IMG/VR virus record: IMGVR_UViG_3300045933_000262
Coordinates: 1-20,040 of that record
Length of the DNA: 20,040 nucleotides
Strand: one strand, 5' to 3'
Source of the DNA: a virus
Each line of letters begins with the position of its first letter. Within the stretch, counting starts at the first letter, position 1. A program made the translations under genes and the position numbers. Below the pieces are notes generated by a model that was not told the origin of the DNA, ran no database searches, and worked only from the letters and a program-made list of their open reading frames with translations. Below, piece after piece: positions 2,222-20,040 of this stretch.

Positions 2222-2466
2222 TGCACCCGTTCCAGGCGAATCACGGTCTGCCCGAGAATCTCCACCCATTGCCCATCATCCCGTTGAAAGACCGGCATCA
2301 TGCCGACATACATGCCGAAGCGCAGCCCGAAGCCTCCGTCGAAGCGCAGCATCAACGATCGCCCGTTGTTCGACGCCAGGCCGACGGTGCAGCGCATCGT
2401 GTCGTCGGCCGCGGCGTCCAGGCGGCTGATGTAGACGATGTCGCCCGCGATGAGGGGCACGCTCAT
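2218..2466 (-). CDS. Hypothetical phage protein, beta-rich
   Basis: This 82-residue protein begins MSVPLIAGDIVYISRLD. Its ATG overlaps the stop of the upstream zinc protein as ATGA, and its own stop overlaps the next start in the same way. Alternating hydrophobic and charged residues (SLMLRFDGGFGLRFGMYVGMM, WVEILGQTVIRLE) suggest a small beta barrel. The first eleven residues are almost identical to those of the upstream neighbour (MSVPLMAGDIV), and the similarity extends to the DNA. Small phage proteins with an N-terminal 'AGD-V' strand often bind nucleic acid or partner proteins, but I cannot name a function. Confidence 0.65.
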   Translation of the reverse strand: MSVPLIAGDIVYISRLDAAADDTMRCTVGLASNNGRSLMLRFDGGFGLRFGMYVGMMPVFQRDDGQWVEILGQTVIRLERVQ

Positions 2467-2654
2467 CGCCGGTCCTCGTCGTCGGTCGTGACGATCGATC
2501 GCCGGCGGATGCAGCCCGAACAGTCGCACGCGTACCGTGCGAGATCAGCCCGGTGCCCACAGTGCCAGCAGTACGTGACGGGCGGCGTCAGTCGCACGCC
2601 GGAATGACACCACGAACACGACACGATGTCGCCGGCCATGAGCGGCACGCTCAT
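2463..2654 (-). CDS. Small zinc-ribbon protein
   Basis: This 63-residue protein begins MSVPLMAGDIVSCSWCHSG. It contains CSWC, CWHC and CDCSGC, so up to two metal sites, and ends in a charged tail (TTDDEDRR). The start is placed at 2652-2654 because it mirrors the N-terminus of the next gene and follows the upstream stop at 2663 by eight bases. A longer open frame exists upstream but overlaps the neighbouring gene completely. It may be a structural or regulatory zinc finger; no specific function can be read. Confidence 0.6.
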   Translation of the reverse strand: MSVPLMAGDIVSCSWCHSGVRLTPPVTYCWHCGHRADLARYACDCSGCIRRRSIVTTDDEDRR

Positions 2655-2662
2655 CGCCGCCC

Positions 2663-2923
2663 TCAGCCCAGCACCAGCCGCGCCGGGATGCCGCGCGGGA
2701 ACAGGTCTCGCAGATCCGATTGCATCGGCGGCGTCTCGACGAGCTCGCGCTCGAACTGCGCCAGGTCCTGGTCGGCGCGCACGGCGATCCGCGTCACGAA
2801 CGCATAGATCGGGATGCCACCCTCGGTCTGTCCCTGCCACACGCGCGCCGGCACGGCCGGCCCGTCGCCCTGGTGGCGATTGATGTCGACGAGATGCGCG
2901 GTCGATTCGATCGTGATCTTCAT
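2663..2923 (-). CDS. Conserved-type small phage protein
   Basis: This gene encodes 86 residues beginning MKITIESTAHLVDINR. ATG at 2921-2923 is preceded by GAGGTGG at six bases. The order of elements (an ITIEST strand, VPARVWQGQTEGGIPIYAFVTRIAV, then an acidic helix DLAQFERELVETPP) matches a short protein I have often seen in siphophage early regions, but it has no established role. The body is beta-rich with a helical tail, without Cys or membrane segments. It sits in the accessory gene run with same-strand neighbours only bases away. Confidence 0.7.
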   Translation of the reverse strand: MKITIESTAHLVDINRHQGDGPAVPARVWQGQTEGGIPIYAFVTRIAVRADQDLAQFERELVETPPMQSDLRDLFPRGIPARLVLG

Positions 2924-2942
2924 TTGGGTCCACCTCGAGGCG

Positions 2943-3095
2943 TCAGGGTTTGCGCAGGGCGCGGAGTCGCACCAGGGCGCGATGCGCGCGGCGCTTGCGA
3001 TCGATGGAGCGGGTGCGCTGCAGCTGGACTTCGTAGTACTCGATCAGGCGGCGCACCTGGTCGGGCGAGGGTGGATCGCGACGGGGGCGGCTCAT
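2943..3095 (-). CDS. Very small basic protein (50 aa)
   Basis: Reading the minus strand from ATG at 3093-3095 gives 50 residues, starting MSRPRRDPPSPDQVRRLIEY and ending HRALVRLRALRKP, with a TGA at 2943-2945. It fills the gap between two clear genes exactly: six bases after the upstream stop and 19 before the next start. GGGAG lies ten bases upstream. The Arg-rich amphipathic helix (IEYYEVQLQRTRSIDRKRRAHRALVRLRAL) is compatible with nucleic-acid binding or a short coiled coil. A competing frame through the same bases starts at 3105 but runs into the next gene's leader and has a less protein-like composition. Confidence 0.55.
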   Translation of the reverse strand: MSRPRRDPPSPDQVRRLIEYYEVQLQRTRSIDRKRRAHRALVRLRALRKP

Positions 3096-3101
3096 GGTCG
3101 A

Positions 3102-3317
3102 TCAACTCCCTTCCGCCTGGTCCGCGCGCGCCCGCACGATGCGGAAGCAGTCATCGCAGATCACGACCATCCCGGGCGCGTTACCGTCGACACCCCAAAG
3201 CACGCGCGCTTCGGCGTGGGCCTCTGCGTCGGACCACCCGGTGTCGAACGTGTCACCGCACGCCGCACAGGTGTAGGCGCGGTCCGGTGCCGCGGCAGGC
3301 ACATCGTCGGTGCTCAT
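3102..3317 (-). CDS. Small zinc-finger protein
   Basis: This 71-residue protein has an acidic leader (MSTDDVPAAAPDR), then YTCAACGDTF and, near the C-terminus, VVICDDCFRIV. Together these give one four-Cys zinc site flanking an Asp/Glu/His-rich middle. The start overlaps the upstream stop as ATGA, which decides it against an upstream Met in the same frame. It resembles stand-alone phage zinc ribbons that modulate host transcription or replication, but nothing in the sequence fixes a target. Confidence 0.65.
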   Translation of the reverse strand: MSTDDVPAAAPDRAYTCAACGDTFDTGWSDAEAHAEARVLWGVDGNAPGMVVICDDCFRIVRARADQAEGS

Positions 3318-15093: not shown

Positions 15094-15597
15094 ATGAAAA
15101 GACGGATGAGGAAGACCGACGCCTTGACCGAGCGCGTCCGCCGTCACCTTGCCGCCGCCATGCAGCAACGCCAGCCGCCGGTCAATCAAGCGGAACTCGC
15201 GCGCCGATCCGGCGTGCCGCCAGGGACGGTAAGTGACTTCTTCCGTGGCCGGCGAATCCCGATGGAGCAACTCGCGGCTCTCGCGGGCGTGTTCGACTGG
15301 CGCTTGGGCGACTTGATCGAGGAGACACCGCCGCCCGCGCCGCGCCACACCATCAAGAATGCGCGCGTGTTGGCGATCGCCGAGCGGCTTGAACGGGCGA
15401 AGAACGACGAGATGCTCGGGTCGATCGAGGACCTGTTGAAGGCCTGGCGCGTGCCGCCGTTATCTGAATCGCCCGCCAGTGAGCTGCGCGCACCTCAGGC
15501 GGGAACGCGGCGAAACGCTTCCAATGCCGAAGTTCAGCGCGGGGGACGTGGAGCACGAGCTCGACCAACGACGGACGCGCGACGACGCCGGACATGA
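15094..15597 (+). CDS. XRE-family phage repressor (CI-like position)
   Basis: This gene encodes 167 residues. The HTH domain covers residues about 10-75 (TERVRRHLAAAMQQRQPPVNQAELARRSGVPPGTVSDFFRGRRIPMEQLAALAGVFDWRLGDLIEE), with QAELARRSGVPPGTVSDFFRG as the recognition motif. A helical stretch (ARVLAIAERLERAKNDEMLGSIEDLLKAW) may mediate dimerisation. The last 40 residues are Arg/Ala/Gly-rich and probably unstructured. There is no LexA-like peptidase domain, so it would not self-cleave in an SOS response. Lying next to the integrase and divergent from a Cro-like gene, it is the likely lysogeny repressor. ATG 15094 lacks a good Shine-Dalgarno sequence. Confidence 0.8.
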   Translation: MKRRMRKTDALTERVRRHLAAAMQQRQPPVNQAELARRSGVPPGTVSDFFRGRRIPMEQLAALAGVFDWRLGDLIEETPPPAPRHTIKNARVLAIAERLERAKNDEMLGSIEDLLKAWRVPPLSESPASELRAPQAGTRRNASNAEVQRGGRGARARPTTDARRRRT

Positions 15598-15701: not shown

Positions 15702-17015
15702 ATGGGCGGGAGTCGAGGTAAGCGTGTCTGTCTCGCGGCCGGGATCTACCAAGATCGCTACGGCATCACGATTCGACATAACGGGCACGAGTCCCCGACG
15801 CGGTTCGCACTCGGCACATCGCTCGAGATCCTCCGCCGCGCCAAGCAGGCCTGGGCGGGCGAGCTGGCGACGCAGGCTGCGCAAGCGGCAGAGGCCGAGG
15901 CGCCGCTCGAGTCGCTTCTGGCGGACATTCCGCGCTATCTCGCCACCGTCGAGAGCCCGAAGAAGAAGGCCGACGATGCCGCCCGCCTTCAGCATTGGGC
16001 GCGCACTGCGCTGGCGAAGAAGCCGCGCACCGCGATCACCAAGCCCGAGATCAAGGCGCAGCTCGTGAAGTTCATCACCGAGCCGCAGCCACGCCAGCCG
16101 CATGCCAAGGGCGGCCCGACGCCCTCACCGAAGCCCCTCGCCGTGCAGACCGCGAACAACTGCCTAACGGTCCTGAAGTCGCTCTACCGCGAACTGAACA
16201 CCGAGACCGACCCGAACCCGACCGCCGAGATCCATGCGATGTCGCGTCCGGACGAGGACGACCCGCCGCGCGACATCGGCCTCGCGAATGCCCAGGCGAT
16301 TCTGGCGCACCTCTCGGATCGTGGGCGTGCGGCGAAGGGCGACAAGCGGCCCGCCCACAGCCTGACCAAGGTGCGGCTCCGCCTGATGATCTTCACGGGC
16401 TGGCCCCACGCCGTGATCAAGCGCCTCGTGCCGTCCGACGACATCATCTGGACGCCCAAGGTGGTCGTGCGCGTACGCGCGCGCCGAAAGGGCAAGGGCG
16501 TGCGTGAACGATGGCTGGAGCTCATCCCCGAGGCGGAGTTGGCCTTGCGCGAATTCGTGCGCGTCAACGCCCAGGGGGCCTTCTCGAACGCAGCGCTCTA
16601 CAAGGGGTTCCAACGCGCGGCGGACAAGGTGCGGCGAGACCAGAACGTGGAGAACGGCCATCGTCTCGCCCGCGGCGAGGCTCCCCTGCCGATCCTCGGG
16701 GCGTGTCGCCCGTACGACGTCCGGCACACCTTCATCACGCACATGCTGCGGCAGACCGGCGGCAACTATGCCGGGGTGCAGGAGCTCGCCATCCACAGCA
16801 CCGCCGACCAGACCCTGCACTACGCCCGCGCGGCCGTGTCCCCGTTGGGCGCGGCGGCGATTGCGGCGGCTGTCGGCAGCGTCCCGGCGCCCCCGCCTTC
16901 GCCTCCAAAGGCTGCCACAGTGGCTGCCACAGTTGGGGGTCCAAGATCGCCGAAATTGTTGAACTTTGCCTCAAAAACGCCGAAGGGGGGTCGGCGTCAG
17001 ACTCTGGCGAAATAA
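15702..17015 (+). CDS. int: Tyrosine site-specific recombinase (integrase) with atypical active site
   Basis: The 437-residue protein has an N-terminal arm-binding-like segment, a SAM-like core-binding domain (about 70-180) and a catalytic domain (about 190-380). Tyr374 (TLHYARAAV) is the nucleophile; Arg341 in RPYDVRHTFITHML is the box II Arg; His365 lies in ELAIHSTADQ. Two usual residues are missing: box I reads FTGWPHAVIKRL, with Pro/His where Arg is expected, and the His of H-x-x-R is Tyr338. The C-terminal tail is Pro/Lys-rich and includes AATVAATV, encoded by the attachment-site repeats. GGAG lies about ten bases before the ATG. The att core begins 32 bases after the stop, the normal place for a tRNA-targeting phage integrase. 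Confidence 0.9.
   Translation: MGGSRGKRVCLAAGIYQDRYGITIRHNGHESPTRFALGTSLEILRRAKQAWAGELATQAAQAAEAEAPLESLLADIPRYLATVESPKKKADDAARLQHWARTALAKKPRTAITKPEIKAQLVKFITEPQPRQPHAKGGPTPSPKPLAVQTANNCLTVLKSLYRELNTETDPNPTAEIHAMSRPDEDDPPRDIGLANAQAILAHLSDRGRAAKGDKRPAHSLTKVRLRLMIFTGWPHAVIKRLVPSDDIIWTPKVVVRVRARRKGKGVRERWLELIPEAELALREFVRVNAQGAFSNAALYKGFQRAADKVRRDQNVENGHRLARGEAPLPILGACRPYDVRHTFITHMLRQTGGNYAGVQELAIHSTADQTLHYARAAVSPLGAAAIAAAVGSVPAPPPSPPKAATVAATVGGPRSPKLLNFASKTPKGGRRQTLAK
16909..16934 (+). repeat. att-flanking repeat, left copy (candidate integrase arm sites)
   Basis: Two tandem copies of the 12-mer GGCTGCCACAGT lie at 16910-16921 and 16922-16933. With one extra base on each side they make a 26-bp block repeated exactly at 17138-17163. 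This copy lies in the 3' end of the integrase gene and encodes its AATVAATV tail. Paired direct repeats about 115 bases from a tRNA-derived core match the position of arm-type integrase-binding sites. Confidence 0.75.
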
Positions 17016-17137: not shown

Positions 17138-17163
17138 AGGCTGCCACAGTGGCTGCCACAGTT
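17138..17163 (+). repeat. att-flanking repeat, right copy (candidate integrase arm sites)
   Basis: This is an exact 26-bp match, in the same orientation, to 16909-16934, again with two tandem GGCTGCCACAGT units (17139-17150 and 17151-17162). It lies 38 bases beyond the tRNA-derived core and is non-coding here, so the identity is not explained by protein sequence. With the left copy it brackets the core, as P and P' arms do in attP. The rest of 17164-17260 shows no gene. Confidence 0.75.
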
Positions 17164-17260
17164 TGGAGGCGTACGCGCGCTCGAAAGCCCCGCACTTTCG
17201 CCCCTCGCGTTTCCGCCAGCCAGACCATTCCGCCAAGTTACCACACGCGGTTCGGATCAC

Positions 17261-17338
17261 TGACCGAGCGCGCCAGTGTGGCGTGAATCTGGCGTCCGCG
17301 GTCCTTGGCGACCCTGTCGGACGTCGCTACGATCTACA
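17261..17338 (+). promoter_or_regulatory. 78-bp promoter repeat, copy 1
   Basis: This block matches 17959-18036 over 78 positions with scattered changes. It begins TGACCGAGCGCGCCA and ends TCGCTACGATCTACA. It contains TTGGCG (17305-17310), a 17-base spacer and TACGAT (17328-17333), a credible sigma-70 promoter conserved in both copies. It drives the signal-peptide protein starting at 17364. The shared upstream half may be a regulator site. Confidence 0.75.
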
Positions 17339-17363
17339 CCAGCCTAGGAGGCACACCGTTCCC

Positions 17364-17944: not shown

Positions 17945-17958
17945 CGAGGTTGGATCGT

Positions 17959-18036
17959 TGACCGAGCGCGCCACTCTGGCTTGAATCTGGCGCGCGCCAT
18001 CATTGGCGACCTGTCGGAGGGTCGCTACGATCTCCA
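17959..18036 (+). promoter_or_regulatory. 78-bp promoter repeat, copy 2
   Basis: This is the diverged second copy of the 78-bp block at 17261-17338. TTGGCG (18003-18008), a 17-base spacer and TACGAT (18026-18031) are conserved. The next ATG, at 18039, lies only seven bases after the -10 box, where transcription should begin, so the downstream gene is predicted to be leaderless. Confidence 0.7.
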
Positions 18037-18038
18037 TC

Positions 18039-18518
18039 ATGACACCAGACACTCCGTCGGCCTCGCCGTGGCGATCCATCGCCCTGTACTTTGGCGGCCT
18101 GCTCGTCGTGTTCGCCGTCGCCATCCTCTGGATCGGGCCGCTGCCCGATGCCGCCGCCCTGAAGGCCGACCCGCCAGACCGGCGACCGGTCGGGACCACG
18201 ACTGCACCCACGACCACGATCACGCGCCCGGGCGGCCCGAACGGCCCGACCGTCACGGCCCGTGAATACGGCGGGGCCTGGCCCTTCACCGTCGAGCGTG
18301 GCGTCCTCGAATGCGACATGGCTTCCAAGACGACCGGCGCGCCGAAACGGCCCCTCGTGACGTTCTCGCCCACGCCCGGGATCATGTACGGCCTGAACGG
18401 CGCGGCGCGCGACTTTGGGTATCCCGATCCGATGTTGATCCAGAAGCCAGGGACCGTGCCGGCGGATCGGCAGCCGTTGATCGACCGGGGCCTGAAGCTC
18501 TGTCAGGGGCCCTCATAA
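18039..18518 (+). CDS. Membrane-anchored protein, DUF2511/YebY-like C-terminus
   Basis: This gene encodes 159 residues from ATG 18039-18041, chosen because it falls at the expected transcription start; a longer frame upstream crosses the promoter. A short cytoplasmic tail precedes a transmembrane helix (SIALYFGGLLVVFAVAILWIG). A Pro/Thr-rich linker (DRRPVGTTTAPTTTITRPGG) leads to a C-terminal domain: YGGAWPFTVERGVLECD, LVTFSPTPGIMYGLNGAARDFGYPDP and LIDRGLKLC. That order (WPF.V..G.L.C ... YALNG.A...GYP) is the one I know from DUF2511 proteins, which have no known function. Two Cys may form a disulfide outside the membrane. Confidence 0.75.
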   Translation: MTPDTPSASPWRSIALYFGGLLVVFAVAILWIGPLPDAAALKADPPDRRPVGTTTAPTTTITRPGGPNGPTVTAREYGGAWPFTVERGVLECDMASKTTGAPKRPLVTFSPTPGIMYGLNGAARDFGYPDPMLIQKPGTVPADRQPLIDRGLKLCQGPS

Positions 18519-18622: not shown

Positions 18623-18651
18623 GCGCAGTGTGTAAGGCAATGCGTTACACT
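18623..18651 (+). promoter_or_regulatory. Leaderless promoter with palindromic operator (YwgA-like gene)
   Basis: GTGTAA-N9-TTACAC (18630-18650) is a 21-base palindrome. TACACT (18646-18651) can serve as a -10 box and GCGCAG (18623-18628) as a weak -35 at 17 bases. The ATG follows nine bases after the -10 box, so the transcript is predicted to be leaderless or nearly so. A second copy of this element precedes the HigB-like gene at 19948. The rest of 18519-18622 holds no gene. Confidence 0.7.
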
Positions 18652-18660
18652 GCCCAATAG

Positions 18661-19086
18661 ATGGACAAAGCCTCCCTCGTTCTGGCCGCGCTCAAGCCCG
18701 GCGGCGGGTTCCGCTACAGTCCAGTGCAGGTGCAGAAACTGTTGTTTCTGATCGATCGACAGATCCCCGACTTGGTCGACGGGCCGCATTTTGACTTCCA
18801 GCCGTACCACTACGGACCCTTCGATCGCACCGTCTACCAGGTCTTGACGGGCCTTGCCGTGCGCGGCTTCGTCGACGTGGACACCGCCGCGCCACGCCGC
18901 ACCTACTCGCTGACGCCTGAGGGCCTGCGAGAGGCTGAGCGGCTGTTTGCCGCGTTGCCGCTGCGCGCCCAGGACTTCATTACGCGGACCTCGGAGTTCG
19001 TTCGTCGTCTGTCATTCGCCCAGCTCGTCTCCGCGATCTACAAGGCGTATCCGGAGATGAAGGCGAACAGCGTGTTTCAGCACTGA
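18661..19086 (+). CDS. YwgA/SocA-like winged-helix protein
   Basis: This gene encodes 141 residues. Its hallmarks are SPVQVQKLLFLIDRQIPDLVDG, then HFDFQPYHYGPFDRTVYQVLTGLAVRGFV, and a wing-like RRTYSLTPEGLREAERLF. The 'LQKLLFLID ... F.PY.YGPFD..VY..L..L...G.V' series is the pattern of small bacterial proteins of the YwgA type, which resemble SocA/Panacea proteins. Panacea proteins act as antitoxins for varied partners, so a regulatory or neutralising role is plausible but unproven here. It starts just after a palindromic operator with no Shine-Dalgarno and is followed after 25 bases by the Ntn hydrolase, presumably in one transcript. Confidence 0.75.
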   Translation: MDKASLVLAALKPGGGFRYSPVQVQKLLFLIDRQIPDLVDGPHFDFQPYHYGPFDRTVYQVLTGLAVRGFVDVDTAAPRRTYSLTPEGLREAERLFAALPLRAQDFITRTSEFVRRLSFAQLVSAIYKAYPEMKANSVFQH

Positions 19087-19111
19087 CCGCCATCGTCCCC
19101 CGACCTCCGCA

Positions 19112-19858
19112 ATGACCGCGATCGTTGGGATTCTCTGCCGAGACGGCCTCGTCATCGGTACGGATAGTTCGGCGACCTCAAGCATCGGACCGATGCGAAC
19201 GATCGAACAGCCGGTCGAGAAACTCTCGATCGTTGCGGATACGGTCATCATCGCAGGGACAGGCCAGTTAGGACTGGGCCAGCGGTTTTGCCACGTCGTG
19301 GAGACCGCCTGGAGCAATCGCAAATTCACCGGGGATTACCTGAGCGTGGGGAAGGAGCTCGCGCGTGAAGGGATCAACGATTTCAGATCGACCAACATGC
19401 CCCAAGGGCATTACGGCGCCCTGGTGGGCTTCCCGCTGGGAGACCATCCGCATCTGTGCGAGCTGGCGGTCGCCGATTTTCAGCCGGAGTTCAAGACCGG
19501 GAAAGGCAATTGGTTCGTCTCGATGGGAAGCGGTCAGCCGATCACCGACCCCTTCTTGGCGCTGATGCGGGAGATTTTTTGGCAGAGTGGCCCGCCGACC
19601 GTACAGGACGCCATCTTCGCCGTGGCCTGGGCGCTGGACCACGTCATCAAGGTCAACCCGGGCGGCATCAACGGCCCCATCAGGATCGCGGTGCTCGAGC
19701 GTGATCCGTTATCGAAGGGCAAGTTTCGTGCGCGGATGCTCGACGACGATGATCTTCAGGAGCATTTCGACAACATTGCGGCCGCGAAGGAGCGGCTCAG
19801 GACGTTTCCGGCGGCGCAAACGCCGGCCGCGGGCACGCTGGACGTTCCGACGCCGTGA
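19112..19858 (+). CDS. HslV/proteasome-like Ntn hydrolase
   Basis: This 248-residue protein begins MTAIVGILCRDGLVIGTDSS. Removing the initiator Met would expose Thr2 as the N-terminal nucleophile, as in HslV. Further matches are Asp18 (GTDSSAT; Asp17 of mature HslV), Lys37 (PVEKLSIVADTVIIAGTGQLGLGQRF; the Lys33 equivalent, three residues later) and Ser140 in SMGSGQPITDPFLALMREIF, matching the GSGG...A..AL segment. It is longer than HslV (about 175), with an extra 60-residue C-terminal part ending in Ala/Pro-rich sequence. No HslU, Clp or Mpa-like ATPase adjoins it. It may be a self-compartmentalising peptidase that uses a host unfoldase. It is probably co-transcribed with the YwgA-like gene. 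Confidence 0.85.
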   Translation: MTAIVGILCRDGLVIGTDSSATSSIGPMRTIEQPVEKLSIVADTVIIAGTGQLGLGQRFCHVVETAWSNRKFTGDYLSVGKELAREGINDFRSTNMPQGHYGALVGFPLGDHPHLCELAVADFQPEFKTGKGNWFVSMGSGQPITDPFLALMREIFWQSGPPTVQDAIFAVAWALDHVIKVNPGGINGPIRIAVLERDPLSKGKFRARMLDDDDLQEHFDNIAAAKERLRTFPAAQTPAAGTLDVPTP

Positions 19859-19947
19859 ATTCGATCAGCGCCCGTCTCTCGCGCCGGCGCCAGGCGGAAC
19901 CCCCTCACCCCGCATCGATCCTTGAACATTTTTCGCGGCGTCCGCCC

Positions 19948-19976
19948 TTGCAGAGTGTAACGCCATGCGATACACT
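19948..19976 (+). promoter_or_regulatory. Leaderless promoter with operator (HigB-like gene)
   Basis: TTGCAG (19948-19953), a 17-base spacer and TACACT (19971-19976) form a good sigma-70 promoter. Between and overlapping them lies GTGTA-N11-TACAC (19955-19975). The 26 bases around it differ from the element at about 18628-18653 at only a few positions. The GTG start is seven bases beyond the -10 box, so the message should be leaderless. A repressor bound here would block polymerase directly. Nothing else was seen in 19859-19947. Confidence 0.75.
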
Positions 19977-19983
19977 TAGTGAT

Positions 19984-20040
19984 GTGCAGATTCGGTCGTT
20001 CACGCATGCGGGGTTACGACGGTTCGACCAAACCGGCGCG
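19984..20040 (+). CDS. higB: HigB-like toxin, N-terminus only (partial)
   Basis: GTG at 19984-19986 opens a frame that runs to the right edge, reading MQIRSFTHAGLRRFDQTGA. This closely follows the N-terminus of HigB/RelE-superfamily 'killer' toxins (M-I-R-S-F-x-H-x-G-L-x-x-F-x-x-T-G), ribosome-dependent mRNA interferases that are silenced by an XRE antitoxin, HigA, normally encoded immediately downstream. Only 19 residues are visible, so the catalytic residues cannot be checked. An overlapping ATG two bases earlier opens a frame without this similarity. The tight promoter-operator just upstream fits autoregulation by HigA. Confidence 0.75.
   Translation, partial: MQIRSFTHAGLRRFDQTGA

Follow-up and report, generated by a model that had tools for sequence, protein, structure and literature searches.

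A proteasome-family hydrolase and a YwgA-like partner form a conserved gene pair in phages and bacteria, a candidate toxin-antitoxin or abortive-infection module

What is a proteasome-like hydrolase doing beside a toxin gene at the edge of a phage contig? The window, as we call the whole 20,040-base virus record analysed here, ends in a module region (18623–20040) that carries a YwgA-like gene, a gene for an N-terminal threonine hydrolase, and the beginning of higB. A preliminary description had read these as a single circuit of a YwgA/SocA-like winged-helix protein, an energy-dependent HslV-like protease and a HigB toxin, switched by proteolysis of the antitoxin HigA. Both protein classes have a literature of their own. 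A 2021 survey of proteasome relatives recognized 22 new families and found no genomic context hinting at their function (PMC8665760), and Panacea antitoxins, which need a GPV motif, are paired with dozens of toxin types (PMC8832971).

Here, we delimit the conserved part of this locus, compare its two proteins with known families, and weigh what the pair may do.

All features of the locus lie on the plus strand. Operator 1 (18630..18651), whose imperfectly palindromic sequence GTGTAAGGCAATGCGTTACACT overlaps a TACACT −10-like hexamer, ends 9 nt before the start of the YwgA-like gene (18661..19086), which encodes a 141-aa winged-helix protein of the DarG toxin-binding-domain or Panacea type, a putative antitoxin or adaptor. 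The hydrolase gene (19112..19858, 248 aa) comes next, and both ORFs are intact in the window's ORF list. Operator 2, GTGTAACGCCATGCGATACACT (19955..19976), ends 7 nt before higB, of which the window holds the first 57 nt (19984..20040, 19 codons from a GTG at 19984) before the contig ends inside the gene. The context is that of a phage, with a Cro/CI-type repressor (15094..15597; PHROG and profile matches) and a tyrosine integrase (15702..17015; PHROG integrase match 6.6e-17) for which a scan found no relatives. A 29-nt direct repeat (97%; 16909–16937 and 17138–17166), with one copy at the 3' end of the integrase gene and the other past it, may serve as an attachment or excisionase site. Separately, a leader of about 100 nt is repeated before two adjacent small ORFs, one secreted-looking and the other DUF2511-like (17254–17313 and 17952–18011; also 17323–17359 and 18021–18057), parts of it being 83% and 73% alike.

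The adjacency of the first two genes is what proved to be conserved. Every one of 19 distinct hydrolase genes, counting one reduced to its first codons (L028), comes directly after a YwgA-like gene of the same orientation, bearing out the conservation that the preliminary description had suggested searching genomes for, and we regard it as near certain that the two genes are a real, conserved unit. Single-protein scans of the hydrolase against viral contigs, phages and plasmids, and of the YwgA-like protein against viral contigs, returned no relatives; these were recovered by querying genome contigs with 64 N-terminal residues followed by alignments, and searches begun with the YwgA-like protein added viral contigs. 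Acidobacteria and Chloroflexi have the pair, as do a proteobacterial assembly, Latescibacteria (with two copies) and viral contigs. The hydrolase family is rare, with members in 3 of 301 genomes of one phylum and 2 of 347 of another, a pattern that points to horizontal spread. Distant, larger Ntn relatives of about 320–440 aa in Bacteroidales (L006, L007 and L008) have only their N-terminal 43–60 residues in common with it and no YwgA neighbor, indicating that pairing belongs to the subfamily of the window's hydrolase. We set aside a correlation between YwgA and hydrolase distances (r 0.38), which included a false pair with a VWA protein (L007).

Loss within the pair runs in one direction. The YwgA-like gene is kept where the hydrolase has suffered a deletion and frameshift (L024) or has shrunk to its first codons (L028 and L080–82), and it stands alone, with no hydrolase, in L088 and L090; the broken copies come from metagenome contigs, and some could be errors of assembly. 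By contrast, a hydrolase lacking ywgA was never seen among the 19 hydrolase genes. In L088 (2501–3720), an AT-rich viral contig, two YwgA-like genes are in tandem. The L090 protein (2441–3271) is encoded directly after phage terminase genes and is extended at its C terminus by about 120 residues that have no Pfam match.

The hydrolase has the hallmarks of a proteasome relative. It passes the proteasome family model PF00227 (25.8 bits against a cut-off of 22.4), and its AlphaFold model (pLDDT 84) shows a proteasome beta fold, with a TM-score of 0.81 to 6bdf_1, a match to Anbu at Z 20.5 over 221 residues, and, like Anbu, a long helix at the C terminus. Residues T2, D18 and K37, the equivalents of catalytic T1, D17 and K33, are present in all intact aligned homologs; only the broken copy L024 departs. 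The preliminary description was therefore right about a proteasome-like enzyme with an N-terminal threonine, and the more specific assignment to HslV did not hold: the one link is a weak PHROG match to a 'peptidase HslV family' (E 8e-4), and NCBIfam returned proteasome beta and alpha models but no HslV model. Neither HslU nor any other AAA+ unfoldase was recognized beside the pair in the neighborhoods read, and we rejected the idea of an energy-dependent, HslV-like protease. PADLOC gave no match of the hydrolase to a named defense system.

The partner's predicted fold points to an antitoxin. For its AlphaFold model (pLDDT 94), DarG in the DarTG complex (7yk3_B) is the only Foldseek match under 1e-3, aligning at Z 11.3 over 135 residues where the next best reaches 9.1 over 85; winged-helix regulators match less well and mostly over the first 100 residues. 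Profile searches give weak agreement (NCBIfam DarG 3.6e-4, PADLOC DarG 2e-6), and the NCBIfam match covers only model positions 185–283, the N-terminal macrodomain being absent. Among the plasmid homologs, which are 24–32% identical, several carry a SocA/DUF4065 antitoxin annotation, and a YGPF motif that resembles GPV, but is not GPV, is invariant in 9 aligned homologs. We did not retain assignment to Panacea/SocA (PF13274), which scores 12.7 bits against a Pfam gathering score of 25.7. The YwgA-like gene of the preliminary description stands and its SocA-type label misses the cut-off; judged by predicted structure, its product resembles the binding domain of an antitoxin more than it does a regulator. 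PADLOC gave only partial matches to it (PDC-M19A, DarG, a specificity subunit and LmuC). One of these matches covers the last 95 residues of the PADLOC type I specificity-subunit model (2.3e-8) and suggests that some HsdS proteins may carry a YwgA-like domain.

The toxin gene leads off the contig. The window's 19-codon piece of higB is too short by itself for a family match. When 2.9 million viral contigs were searched for the operator, a single match came up, IMGVR_UViG_3300045933_000285 (L029/L038), whose first 137 nt match the window's last 136 at 99%. This contig encodes a complete HigB and then HigA, the latter matching TIGR02607 at 86.7 bits against an NCBIfam cut-off of 47.7, so that the antitoxin gene expected on extending the contig is indeed there. 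The whole HigB has RelE/ParE-type matches at about 50% in plasmids, and a HigA-type gene adjoins all five annotated plasmid HigB relatives examined. Beyond higB, higA and a 97-aa ORF come large ORFs on the opposite strand, including a large terminase subunit and a head protein and head protease in one ORF (L039). Of the contigs compared, this one has the tetranucleotide profile closest to the window's (0.92; for two others the value is about 0.90). Window and contig are likely neighbors in one phage population, a placement drawn from overlapping contig ends and not from a finished genome; with the contigs so joined, the cassette would likely sit between the integrase and the late genes. The head and terminase genes after higBA make it most likely that the cluster is cargo of a phage.

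The preliminary description joined HigB to the module through two operators. They are identical at 19 of 22 positions, as near to identical as had been described, and a pattern covering both had no match in 100 shuffles of the window. Each overlaps a TACACT hexamer, 7–9 nt ahead of the start codon, which would make the messages leaderless or nearly so; no sigma-70 consensus promoter was found, and the RNA between hydrolase and higB shows no unusual structure (z −0.54). Both operators have a TGTAAC-N7-GTTACA shape over the −10, and in the regions upstream of 31 HigB relatives the best TGTAAC...GTTACA match has the same 7-base spacing at 18 loci; several are clear, such as TGTAACATAATGTGTTACA in L068, and many others weak. 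Together with the higB–higA order, the palindromic operator fits a HigBA system. Since the window operators share the architecture of many related higBA promoters, they resemble sites for HigA, and a single HigA plausibly represses both transcripts, as the preliminary description had proposed.

Membership of HigB in the module is another matter. No higBA adjoins any other YwgA/hydrolase pair in the stretches read around them (in L027, a Gp49/HTH pair of another kind lies about 2 kb off), and no HigA-type operator precedes the other ywgA genes whose promoters were examined. On this comparison of loci, the predicted module is narrower than the three-gene proposal, comprising the YwgA-like protein and the hydrolase, and its putative operator link to HigA is local to the window's phage. 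The arrangement suggests that one toxin-antitoxin regulator may have captured a neighboring operon.

The neighbors of the pair are of several kinds. Adjacent to it or no more than a few kb away are type I restriction genes in L003, L004 and L077, genes for MunI and SacI, both type II restriction enzymes, in L005 and L076, and AbiE in L002. At the eight chromosomal loci, two N6-methylase neighbors were observed within 3.5 kb against about 0.1 expected, an estimate by hand arithmetic from the same genomes' N6-methylase counts that covers N6 methylases only. The distant chromosomal copies L019–L021 have no recognized defense gene nearby. In L025, L026, L028, L079, L080, L086 and L090, terminase, portal, capsid or virion genes adjoin the pair or a lone ywgA. 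One locus (L005; 3055–3189 and 5570–6001) also has a 45-codon ywgA fragment upstream of the MT-A70/MunI restriction cassette and a duplicated end of the flanking gene; the restriction system looks like an insertion with a long target duplication.

We think that the pair may be a toxin-antitoxin or abortive-infection module, carried here as a cassette under captured HigA control, and put the probability of this reading at roughly 45%. Its basis is the obligate pairing, antitoxin-type fold and active-looking hydrolase, combined with the one-way hydrolase loss, the patchy mobile distribution and the restriction-system neighbors. We infer the following course, from binding and inhibition through activity and trigger to HigA at operator 1 and a role in defense. 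A temperate phage would carry a mobile two-gene cassette, whose first gene would make a small binding protein of the DarG-toxin-binding or Panacea type and whose second would make a self-contained proteasome-family hydrolase, activated when removal of the first Met exposes Thr1. The YwgA-like protein, translated first from the common message, would bind the hydrolase and keep it inactive or restrict its substrates. Infection or stress would then remove or titrate the YwgA-like protein, leaving the hydrolase to cleave key proteins so that the infecting or superinfecting phage is no longer supported. In the prophage state HigA would repress both the cassette and higBA, and its loss would induce both. 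Several points count against this toxin-antitoxin reading: release from HigA would induce both partners and would not alone free the hydrolase, the YwgA-like protein misses the Panacea cut-off, three distant chromosomal copies (L019–L021) lack a recognized defense neighbor, and some pairs sit among phage late genes, where a role in lysis would be no less natural than one in defense.

The absence of a recognized ATPase beside the pair, as for other new proteasome homologs (PMC8665760), and its obligate pairing with a protein of protease fold also suit a different division of labor, in which the YwgA-like protein is a substrate adaptor or gate for an ATP-independent proteasome-like chamber, much as SocA brings SocB to ClpXP, and which could serve regulatory proteolysis or phage anti-defense. 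SocA is a precedent as a Panacea-domain proteolytic adaptor, but that role is exceptional in a group where direct binding is the rule (PMC8832971), and an adaptor for this protease does not explain why YwgA persists where the hydrolase is broken or absent; we consider this explanation unlikely, if a serious one. The late-gene neighbors would be accounted for if the pair acted late in the phage cycle, for instance in processing virion or host proteins, with the chromosomal copies as phage remnants. Such a role in reproduction seems rather improbable to us, given that three viral lineages have a broken hydrolase, that the window's phage already encodes a head protease, joined to the major head protein in a single ORF, and that restriction systems lie beside chromosomal copies in different phyla. 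The full circuit, with YwgA, hydrolase and HigBA as one module and HigA proteolysis freeing toxin and protease together, draws on the near-identical operators at both promoters and on the higA gene of the overlapping contig. It is very improbable: other pairs and ywgA promoters stand apart from higBA and its operator, and no ATPase was recognized that would let the hydrolase act on folded HigA.

Several known systems come close to the pair or to its neighbor. With Panacea (PanAT, PF13274) and SocAB the pair shares a two-gene layout, in which a small antitoxin-type protein accompanies a variable effector, and a patchy distribution in bacteria and phages, and its conserved GP motif is similar to theirs, but the YwgA-like protein is below the Pfam cut-off and the effector is a proteasome-family hydrolase, a kind that we did not find named in PMC8832971 or PMC10440598. 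Likeness to the C-terminal domain of DarG lies in the predicted fold and the full-length match to the DarT-binding domain; unlike DarG, the protein lacks a macrodomain, stands alone and has a different partner. The hydrolase shares the proteasome beta fold and T1, D17 and K33 with Anbu, HslV, BPH and the homologs of Fuchs, Alva and Lupas (PMC8665760), of which some are phage-borne, but differs from those homologs in that its subfamily has a fixed partner gene. The HigBA part is a regular type II system in its neighboring higB and higA and its palindromic operator over the −10, except that a HigA-type operator also stands here at an unrelated neighboring operon. The prophage-encoded Lit protease causes abortive infection by cleaving EF-Tu. 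Its likeness to the present case would be by analogy, in the proposed logic of a prophage protease that stops superinfection, and the two protease folds are unrelated.

Phage proteasome relatives and Panacea-type antitoxins are already known; in the literature searched we found no earlier description that joins them or places a YwgA-like protein or Ntn hydrolase in such a paired module. We tentatively suggest, at somewhat longer odds, that in this module a proteasome-family enzyme may for the first time be the effector of a toxin-antitoxin or abortive-infection system, restrained by a partner of antitoxin fold, and that for phages carrying the partner alone it may act as a decoy antitoxin when the host has the whole pair. 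The pairing gives an orphan proteasome homolog an obligate partner of antitoxin fold, beside restriction systems and in phages, which makes its function directly and cheaply testable. If the reading is true, proteasome-type enzymes would join the list of toxins or abortive-infection effectors.
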